From contig JAOARP010000046.1 of NCBI GenBank assembly GCA_025210525.1, forward strand, positions 1 through 59,917: DNA of 59,917 nucleotides, in the 5' to 3' direction. Under the pieces are notes generated by a model. It searched no databases. It saw only the letters and a program-made list of their open reading frames with translations, and had not been told where the DNA came from. Shown here in pieces: positions 46,613 through 49,201 of this stretch; positions within the stretch are counted from its first letter, which is position 1, and each line of letters begins with the position of its first letter. The stretch comes from Marinisporobacter sp. Its GTDB lineage: Bacteria; Bacillota; Clostridia; Peptostreptococcales; Thermotaleaceae. Made by a program: the position numbers and the translations under genes.

Positions 46613-46842
46613 AATTTTCCTCCTTTAAACTATAATGTTATATTTTTCCGTCGAATCATATTATAACATGGCTATAATGAATTAGCTAGTCCTAATTAGG
46701 CAAACCATAAGAGTGAGGAAATATATGAAAATTTACACCTTTGATGAGTTCGTGACAGACACCAAAAGATTGATTTTATTTTGATATAAACAAATATTTC
46801 TGGGTATATAGATAAAGGAATGAAAAATAAGGAGATGACGCT

Positions 46843-47559
46843 ATGCCTAAAGAATTAAAAATAGGATGCCAAATACCTAAAGAAGAGAAAAAAATAGTTG
46901 AGGAATCTACTAAAGAGGAGATTTCAGTTAAAAAGGAGGAAGTGAACATGTTAAAGGTAGGAAAACCTGTACCAAATTTTACTGCACCTGCATATCAACA
47001 AGGTAAATTTATAAATGTAGATTTATCAGAATATAAGGGGAAATGGGTTTTATTATGCTTTTATCCAGGAGACTTTACATTTGTTTGAGCCACTGAAGTT
47101 TCAGCAGTTGCTGAAAAATATGAAGAACTACAAGATTTAGGCGTTGAAGTACTTTCTATTAGTGTAGATAGTGTTTTTGTACATAAGATGTGGAATGAAC
47201 ACGAATTATCTAAGATGGTAGGAAAAGATATTCCATTCCCTATGTTATCCGATCAAGGTGGAAATATTGGAAAAATGTATGGGGTATATGATGAAGATTC
47301 TGGCGTAGAAACAAGAGGAAGATTTATCATTGATCCAGATGGAAAGCTTCAGGCATTTGAAGTTTTAACACCTCCAGTAGGAAGAAATGTTAGCGAGACT
47401 ATTAGACAGATTAAAGCTTTTCAACTTGTTAGAGAATCAAAAGGGACACAAGCAACTCCTTCTGGATGGAAACCTGGGAAAAAAACATTGAAACCAGGAC
47501 CTCAACTAGTAGGAAATGTATGGAAAGAGTGGAAGGTTACTGAAGCTTTTGATGAATAG
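46843..47559 (+). CDS. Selenocysteine-containing peroxiredoxin (AhpC/Prx1 type)
   Basis: 238 codons with one in-frame TGA (47086-47088) exactly where AhpC-type peroxiredoxins have the peroxidatic Cys: FYPGDFTFV-U-ATEV. The frame continues without a break through SVDSVFVHKMW, FPMLSDQGG, GRFIIDPDG and ends GWKPGKKTLKPG. A SECIS-like hairpin follows the TGA. From an alternative start at 46948 (AAGGAGGA, then MLKVGKPVPNFTAPA) Sec is residue 47, the usual AhpC position; the start at 46843 adds 35 Lys/Glu-rich residues including one Cys (GCQIP). The normal resolving Cys (VCP) is replaced by ATP. Its 3' end overlaps the convergent gene by 23 bases. Confidence 0.85.
47099..47116 (+). promoter_or_regulatory. 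Bacterial SECIS-like hairpin
   Basis: TTTCAGC, loop AGTT, GCTGAAA: a perfect 7-bp stem whose loop has G as second base. The loop lies 18-21 nt after the UGA, inside the usual distance for SelB-recognised elements. Confidence 0.65.
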
Positions 47560-49003
47560 GAAGTTTACCTCCAGCTTGCTTATATCTAGCGTAAAACTCT
47601 TGTAAAAATTGATTAGCAACATTTGCATTATGTATAATGAGCATATTTTTATCATTTATATGATTTCCATTGTTACTCCAATTTGTAGAACCTATGATTA
47701 CTGATGGATCACTGTTTGTATTTGCATCAATAATCATGGTTTTACTATGGAGTTTTCTTTTTTCGTTGTCTTCAAATATGGGCGGTATATTTTTGTATTG
47801 GGCTAGGATTCTTTCAGATGCAGACCAATTTTTATAAAAAAAACAAGAATCAAAAACACCTTTTAAATCAAAATTTGTTCTTTGTCCATTAGGGGTTTCC
47901 CATTTATTTTTCAATATAGAAACGAGCTTTTTATCTGACCAACAAAAGATATTAAAATATACGCTAAAATCAGCTTTTTCCTGAACGAACTTTTGTAATT
48001 TACCTATGGGGTTATCACTAGGGGAAAAATATACTTCTACTAATGTTCCATTTATATCTACTTTATGTGTCGTATGATTATTTTTTCTTGCGTGAAAATT
48101 AGATTTTTCAGGATTAGGATTTATGCTGCTACCTCCCCACATTTCATTAAATTCTTCTTTGTAAATTTTTGCAAGCTTAGGTGAATGAATTTCTATTACA
48201 TTTTGAGTGTTTCCATCAAGTATCCCCTGATCTCTATTTTCTTTTGAGCCATACAGACCTGTCTGGGTAAAATTCCAACTCCCTGTCCAAACCCATTTAT
48301 TATCAATGATTACAAATTTGTTATGCATTTGATCCTTAGGTGGATAATATGCATTTTTAGATTTTTTTTCTCCTTCTGCAATCATAGCTCCTTTTACAAA
48401 ATGTTGTCCTATTTGAATTGCTTTTTTAGAAATGTCTATGTTTGGCAAATTAAAATCATTTCTTAAAGATTGATTGGTTACTGCAAACATAGGGGAATCA
48501 CAGAGTACATGAATATCATCCTTAGTTCCTATTATTTTATCCTTTCCTCTTATCATTTTTTCAATATACAACTTCATTATATTGTATCTTTCTTCATATT
48601 CTCCATAGGTGTTTTTTGCATCAGCAATAATCCGAACAGTGATGCCATTTGCTGCTTGATCAATTAATGCATCTACAATCTTAGGAAGGTTGATTTCATA
48701 AACGGTCAAATCAATACTTTCTTTAGCATGATGAATTCGAATAAGTAATCTTTCTTCTAAATTCACATGATAATTTGCTTTATTTCCTGGGAAAGCATAT
48801 TTTGATAAAGCGCTTTTATTAAAATAAACGTTTATGGCACCTTCTTTTTCTGAAAGATTATTGATCTGTTGGTGGGAGGAGTTGGTTTCAAAGATATTTC
48901 TTGTATACTCAGCAATTTCTTCAGCATTAAAACCATACAATAAAATAGCGAGAGCAACAACGAATAAGACTGTCTTTAATTCTTTTAATATACATTTACG
49001 CAT
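47537..49003 (-). CDS. Phospholipase D-like (HKD) protein
   Basis: 488 aa with an N-terminal membrane helix (LFVVALAILLYGF) and two HKD motifs: HNKFVIID (His231, Lys233, Asp238 from an upstream GTG) with a GSWNFT tail, and HSKTMIID (His423, Lys425, Asp430) followed by GSTNWS. Both are intact, so it is a catalytically competent PLD-family enzyme, perhaps acting on phospholipid or nucleic acid outside the cell or at the membrane. The ATG at 49003 is preferred; the GTG at 49015 abuts the ribosome binding site. The 3' end overlaps the peroxiredoxin gene. Confidence 0.88.
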   Translation of the reverse strand: MRKCILKELKTVLFVVALAILLYGFNAEEIAEYTRNIFETNSSHQQINNLSEKEGAINVYFNKSALSKYAFPGNKANYHVNLEERLLIRIHHAKESIDLTVYEINLPKIVDALIDQAANGITVRIIADAKNTYGEYEERYNIMKLYIEKMIRGKDKIIGTKDDIHVLCDSPMFAVTNQSLRNDFNLPNIDISKKAIQIGQHFVKGAMIAEGEKKSKNAYYPPKDQMHNKFVIIDNKWVWTGSWNFTQTGLYGSKENRDQGILDGNTQNVIEIHSPKLAKIYKEEFNEMWGGSSINPNPEKSNFHARKNNHTTHKVDINGTLVEVYFSPSDNPIGKLQKFVQEKADFSVYFNIFCWSDKKLVSILKNKWETPNGQRTNFDLKGVFDSCFFYKNWSASERILAQYKNIPPIFEDNEKRKLHSKTMIIDANTNSDPSVIIGSTNWSNNGNHINDKNMLIIHNANVANQFLQEFYARYKQAGGKLPIHQKLQ

Positions 49004-49201
49004 TAATTCGTGCACCTCTTTTTAGATTATCATCTATTCTTCTTTTCATATTCTTCCTTTAAATTAGAAAAATAGTAAAAATATTTCCGAATTGGTAAAT
49101 CTTTTTATAAAACGTATCAAAAGTATTATTTGAGCTGTCTATAATACATCTATAAATAGGTCTTGGTCTATGGAAAAATTTGAAAAAAATACAATACACT
49201 A

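Follow-up and report, generated by a model that had tools for sequence, protein, structure and literature searches.

The prxU locus and its in-frame UGA

The window analyzed here, a stretch of 59,917 nucleotides from Marinisporobacter sp. (contig JAOARP010000046.1), carries on its forward strand a peroxiredoxin gene, prxU, that is interrupted by a TGA codon at the position of the peroxidatic residue. The features of the locus, with TGA read as selenocysteine (Sec), are as follows:

46829..46834, + strand: Shine-Dalgarno (SD) box AAGGAG of the long start, from the sequence; anti-SD duplex -8.7 kcal/mol
46843..47559, + strand: prxU, long form, 238 aa, Sec82, from the frame and the PrxU model
46867..46869, + strand: TGC, Cys9 of the N-terminal arm (GC motif, here the variant GCQIP)
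46932..46939, + strand: internal SD box AAAGGAGG, 8 nt before ATG 46948, from the sequence and family comparison
46948..47559, + strand: prxU, predicted short form, 203 aa, Sec47, from the sequence
47056..47058, + strand: TGC, Cys72 (Sec-10), from alignment with relatives
47086..47088, + strand: TGA, Sec82 of the long and Sec47 of the short form, peroxidatic residue, from the frame and the family loci
47099..47116, + strand: SECIS-like hairpin, 7 bp, loop AGTT, from folding and family conservation

The protein begins MPKELK and reads MPKELKIGCQIP...LLCFYPGDFTFV-U-ATEVSAVAEK, with U as residue 82 of 238. An initial annotation, made from the sequence alone, had claimed that this TGA, with these flanks, replaces the peroxidatic cysteine codon, that a further 156 open codons with peroxiredoxin motifs follow, and that gene callers would split the gene. 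All of this holds: the protein is an AhpC/Prx1-type match, the frame runs to the TAG at 47557–47559, both halves fit PrxU, and open reading frame calling by table 11 yields two pieces, 46843–47088 and 47188–47559. Open length by itself is no proof of readthrough, since eight of the 2288 TGA triplets in the window (both strands), that at 47086 among them, precede at least 156 open codons. What identifies one gene across the TGA is the match of both halves to a single peroxiredoxin model, be it AhpC-TSA, which spans the codon (1.4e-39), or NCBIfam PrxU (NF040737; 409.6 bits against a cut-off of 270, 3.9e-123), which is matched over positions 2–232 of 233. By family name, the product is a putative thioredoxin-dependent peroxiredoxin.

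The search for Sec genes and the comparison with known PrxU proteins that had been proposed as checks both came out in favor of the initial annotation. In the window genome (98.46% complete), selD, selA, selB and tRNA-Sec lie together (G000:C29:161701-171190), all scoring above curated cut-offs (selB 402.5 bits, selA 639.6, selD 402.7; tRNA-Sec 74.5 bits against a gathering score of 47), and PrxU of Peptoclostridium (Eubacterium) acidaminophilum is 67.5% identical to the window protein over its whole length and has its Sec at the same site.

Furthermore, a protein exceeding the PrxU cut-off was found in 31 of 98 related genomes, with one internal TGA in all 31, and, in a phylum-wide sample, in 49 of 398 genomes, every one of the 49 showing one or more TGAs; the window genome is counted in both sets. 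In each of the 160 family loci that were read, 148 of them distinct, the peroxidatic position is occupied by TGA and never by a cysteine codon. These comprise 139 loci (L020-L158; 127 distinct), of which 137 were read by motif and two by eye, and a further 21 (L159-L179), the last of them partial and below the PrxU cut-off. Two proteins below the family cut-off (L180 and L181) have cysteine both at the peroxidatic site and at the AhpC resolving position.

Three side observations concern the genes read. The selD match (G000:C29:161701-162624) has one in-frame TGA, so that the selenophosphate synthetase of the window genome is probably itself a selenoprotein, as the selD product is in other bacteria too. 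In one record (L087, Anaerosalibacter massiliensis), the prxU frame meets a TAA soon after the Sec codon, which may reflect either a broken gene or a sequence error. Finally, the end of the window gene overlaps tail to tail, by 23 bp (47537–47559), a minus-strand open reading frame (47537–49015) whose translation appears phospholipase-D-like by eye. A promoter and terminator scan returned nothing beyond shuffles.

A 7-bp hairpin with an AGTT loop had been placed 11 nt after the TGA, and it is present there (TTTCAGC-AGTT-GCTGAAA, 47099–47116). Taken singly it does not stand out: the 56-nt fold has z = -0.48, and when the window gene is recoded synonymously, 11% of the recoded versions likewise form all seven pairs. 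Across the family, at least six of the seven pairs form in the same register in 130 of 148 distinct sequences (all seven in 108), while the expectation is 53.3 from synonymous resampling (maximum 72 in 500) and 90.5 from shuffling the 3' letters (maximum 101 in 300). Paired positions change together (TA/CG/AT/GC at +12/+27; AT/GC/TA at +15/+24), and AGTT forms the loop in 116 of the 148, GGTC in another 17. By these comparisons, the hairpin is significant across the family and non-significant in the window gene alone. The 18 exceptions are 16 genes that lack the N-terminal arm and two that bear it (L037 and L087); fewer than six of the family pairs follow the UGA in 15 of the 17 arm-less loci L162-L178, and the SECIS of many arm-less genes is probably arranged differently. 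In an Rfam scan of 46700–47700 with E values allowed up to 10, there were four weak hits, to eukaryotic RNAs, and none exceeded its gathering score.

If the gene were broken, with TGA 47086 either a genuine stop or an error of sequencing, standard calling would yield two pieces, as it does, and a window hairpin without significance of its own would be no surprise. Against this stand the same codon throughout the family loci, the conservation of the hairpin through paired changes and the Sec machinery encoded in the genome, and we give the broken-gene reading practically no credence. The window gene is a real selenocysteine enzyme of the known PrxU family, and the interpretation of UGA as Sec put forward in the initial annotation is supported.

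A second in-frame start and its conservation

The window gene has two in-frame starts, ATG 46843, which opens the 238-aa frame with its GC-motif arm, and ATG 46948, which would give the 203-aa protein. The initial annotation had passed over the latter. Relatives share an in-frame start near residue 36 behind an SD box; among distinct arm-bearing loci, 122 of 123 have a start codon there (ATG in 119, GTG in two, TTG in one). The remaining locus, L157, bears an arm and lacks both a clear box and a start codon at that place; it is a natural exception to the double start.

The test set consisted of these 122 distinct loci, drawn from L020-L158 by requiring both a cysteine-bearing arm and an internal start codon. 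This excluded five of the 127 distinct loci: the arm-less L154, L155 and L158, and the two without an internal start codon, L156, with a different short N-terminus beginning MSC, and L157, whose arm has its cysteine. An HMM search of whole genomes contributed 48 of the 122, and 74 came from an arm-favoring scan, being from the best 80 of 572 by similarity to arm-bearing proteins, partly found with the peptide CFYPGDFT. The largest family of neighboring open reading frames occurred at only 6 of the 122 loci, with flanks of varying length.

Ahead of the internal start, 105 of 122 loci have a longest exact match to AAAGGAGGTGA of 6 nt or more, and 92 one of 7 nt or more, where synonymous resampling, which keeps the amino acids and each gene's own codon usage, expects 27.0 and 13.6. 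Control in-frame ATGs after the Sec codon reach 6 nt in 15 of 550 cases, and the loci found by HMM search alone do so at the internal start in 43 of 48. Median anti-SD duplex energies are -12.1 kcal/mol for the internal start, -13.5 for the long start (with the best start codon chosen) and -3.0 for the control ATGs. SD-like hexamers fall, for the long start, into the bins at -132 and -120 (68 and 52 of 122) and, for the internal start, into the bin at -24 (99 of 122), with at most 16 in any of the remaining bins.

The loci counted are interrelated. When they were thinned to below 90% identity, 78 of 91 representatives kept the box (22.6 expected), and below 80%, 21 of 26 did so (6.2 expected), L087 being left out. 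Below 75%, 8 of 11 have a box of at least 6 nt (2.7 expected); this last test is weak, since only 11 representatives are left and the best of 1000 resamplings equals the observed value. For the window gene alone, the internal box has P = 0.033. The internal match is just 4–5 nt in 17 of the 122 loci, and in 41 the spacing is 11 nt, longer than usual.

Codon choice at the box bears on whether it is in use. Were the long form the sole product, the box would have no role in initiation and would be either a site at which ribosomes pause or a relic left over from a short ancestor of the gene. It could have been inherited, since this is where arm-less relatives begin; in the P. acidaminophilum record, only a 240-aa form is annotated; and a slowing of ribosomes has been suggested for SD-like boxes within genes. 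A relic, however, should decay synonymously, and among 96 Lys-Glu pairs at the box, Lys is AAG in 89 and Glu is GAG in 89, as against 676 of 1940 (35%) and 512 of 1682 (30%) in gene bodies; in the rest of the arm, the figures are 117 of 365 and 133 of 560. In 84 of 95 cases, Lys-Glu is followed by a residue with GNN codons (E, A, V, D or G), as expected where the next base has to be G. The box also survives a change of phase in five of the 105 loci, where it encodes ERRE, KGA, KGV or KGEE instead, and a pause site would need no start codon at the right spacing, such as all arm-bearing loci but one possess. We therefore regard production of the long form alone as unlikely. Taken together, the comparisons argue for a second start whose ribosome-binding site is under selection, which was our criterion for a dual start.

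The Cys-bearing arm and its history

The arm is 33–42 codons long, and in the window protein it is rich in Lys and Glu. Since an upstream cysteine was the criterion for calling an arm, the presence of one in every arm is no independent result. The motif GCxRP occurs in 101 of the 122 arm-bearing loci, and its Gly, Arg and Pro are encoded by every available synonymous codon (four, six and four, respectively). The conservation is at the amino-acid level, and on this evidence the arm is translated and a real part of the protein. In 32 loci the motif extends to GCARPTGGP and is followed by a near-fixed VGE (V in 30, G in 32, E in 30); judging by record titles, none of the 32 is labelled Bacillota or Clostridia.

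These data also bear on the converse proposal, that only the short form is made and the region before ATG 46948 is a leader encoding no functional arm. The 2001 work on E. acidaminophilum reportedly described a protein of 203 aa with Sec47, which we take to be the short form of P. acidaminophilum prxU and which would suit this proposal. Besides the conservation of GCxRP, it would leave unexplained why the frame stays open between the two starts over the whole length of the arms and why the long start has an SD match of its own, 6 nt or longer in 106 of the 122 loci, a count favored by choosing the best-scoring start up to 12 codons before the Cys. We consider it very improbable that the short form is the sole product.

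AlphaFold, given C for Sec, places arm residues 1–32 at pLDDT below 50, so that the predicted model is silent on where the arm lies. As a separate matter, the idea that the arm motif is a mobile appendage was tried and rejected: a degenerate pattern matched in 9 of 59 genomes, and all nine matches lay inside prxU. The pattern misses the arm of the window gene and many others, which makes this a weak test of mobility.

Arm-less relatives begin at the internal site, behind an SD box. On a tree of 149 proteins, the arm-bearing label needs five changes; 19 of the 22 short-labelled rows fall into one group of 26, together with six arm-bearing rows (L045-L049 and L153) and L159. Two arm-less genes, L155 and L169, for which the internal site is the start, are nested in a large arm-bearing clade (120 rows, support 100/97), so that loss of the arm leaves a gene with SD box and start. 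The simplest history would be that a short ancestral gene gained the arm while its old start stayed under selection.

Two predicted isoforms and comparison with known peroxiredoxins

We propose that the UGA is decoded as the peroxidatic Sec through the hairpin 11 nt downstream and the organism's own SelA, SelB, SelC and SelD, that the upstream start would yield the 238-aa protein with its Lys/Glu-rich, GC-motif arm, and that ATG 46948, behind its SD box, would yield a 203-aa core, both forms having an identical Sec active site. That prxU combines a UGA read as Sec with translation from two in-frame starts appears to us probable. From the family-wide conservation we infer that both starts are used in the cell and yield two isoforms; most likely both forms are made.

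In the predicted structure, the core adopts the Prx1/AhpC fold (mean pLDDT 74.2; TM-score to human Prx2, 7kiz, 0.71 by query and 0.85 by target length). Typical 2-Cys peroxiredoxins (AhpC, human Prx1/2/4) share this fold and the active-site loop with the prxU product, but have Cys where prxU has Sec. Furthermore, the AhpC resolving Cys, which both Cys outgroup proteins have at +119, is missing from all 121 arm-bearing proteins that reach this position (of 123 rows, L087 and L179 are too short), and the window protein reads TPSGWKPG at the place of AhpC CPAKW. All 123 arm-bearing rows and 20 of the 22 arm-less ones have a Cys at Sec-10; because the scan over-represents arm-bearing genes, and that set was partly fetched with a peptide containing this very residue, the counts are no basis for calling it universal. 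The Sec-10 Cys and, in the long form only, the arm Cys are thus two candidate resolving residues.

We conjecture that subunits with and without an arm come together in a single ring, and that the role of the C-terminal resolving Cys, absent from arm-bearing proteins, is taken over by the arm Cys, which would contact the oxidised Sec. A fuller version, in which the isoforms occur at a set ratio within a ring, the arm Cys of a long subunit forms with its own or a neighboring Sec an Se-S bond opened by thioredoxin, and arm-less subunits follow a one-Sec route, is possible but on balance doubtful; if true, the cell would tune selenoenzyme chemistry by its choice of translation start. Two questions about PrxU are touched here, namely how the enzyme is recycled without the usual resolving Cys and where its true N-terminus lies, and conserved alternative starts, with and without the Cys arm, would allow this to be tested directly and cheaply.

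The closest known system is prxU of P. acidaminophilum, from which the window gene shows no structural difference that we could find. Its hairpin letters, GTTTCAGCAGTTGCTGAAA, are identical to those of the window; its protein, too, has no C-terminal resolving Cys; and its arm, MPQDFKPGCARP in strain DSM 3953, has a GCARP motif. It possesses both starts (240 aa with Sec84, 203 aa with Sec47): the box AAAAAGGAGGAG precedes ATGTCTATG, so that two ATGs follow, the second of which, at the usual spacing, leads to the 203-aa form. Like this gene, a Chloroflexota plasmid gene is outside the 122 loci; it has an arm with GCATP and AAAGGAG ahead of an internal ATG. Table 2 of PMC3091704, the consulted portion of which mentions no second start, gives the seleno-peroxiredoxin of Clostridium sticklandii, CLOST_2406, as a protein of 240 aa with Sec84, which matches a long form in length. 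Likewise, the portions consulted of PMC13188914, PMC9312934, PMC1088965, PMC8533274, PMC5109826 and PMC7409299 make no mention of a second start in PrxU; the 2001 original may report one.

PrxU is an established family, and what is new here is the two conserved in-frame starts with an optional Cys arm; this conserved double start is the part that deserves follow-up. If it is true, both lengths in use, the 203 aa reportedly described in 2001 and the annotated 240 aa, are right, and expressing a single form could miss half of the system. A bacterial gene with an internal in-frame start is infB. Another, according to the part of PMC6168691 consulted, is clpB. Both resemble prxU in that one gene gives two N-terminal isoforms; unlike them, prxU encodes a selenoprotein, and its optional part is a short Cys-bearing arm.
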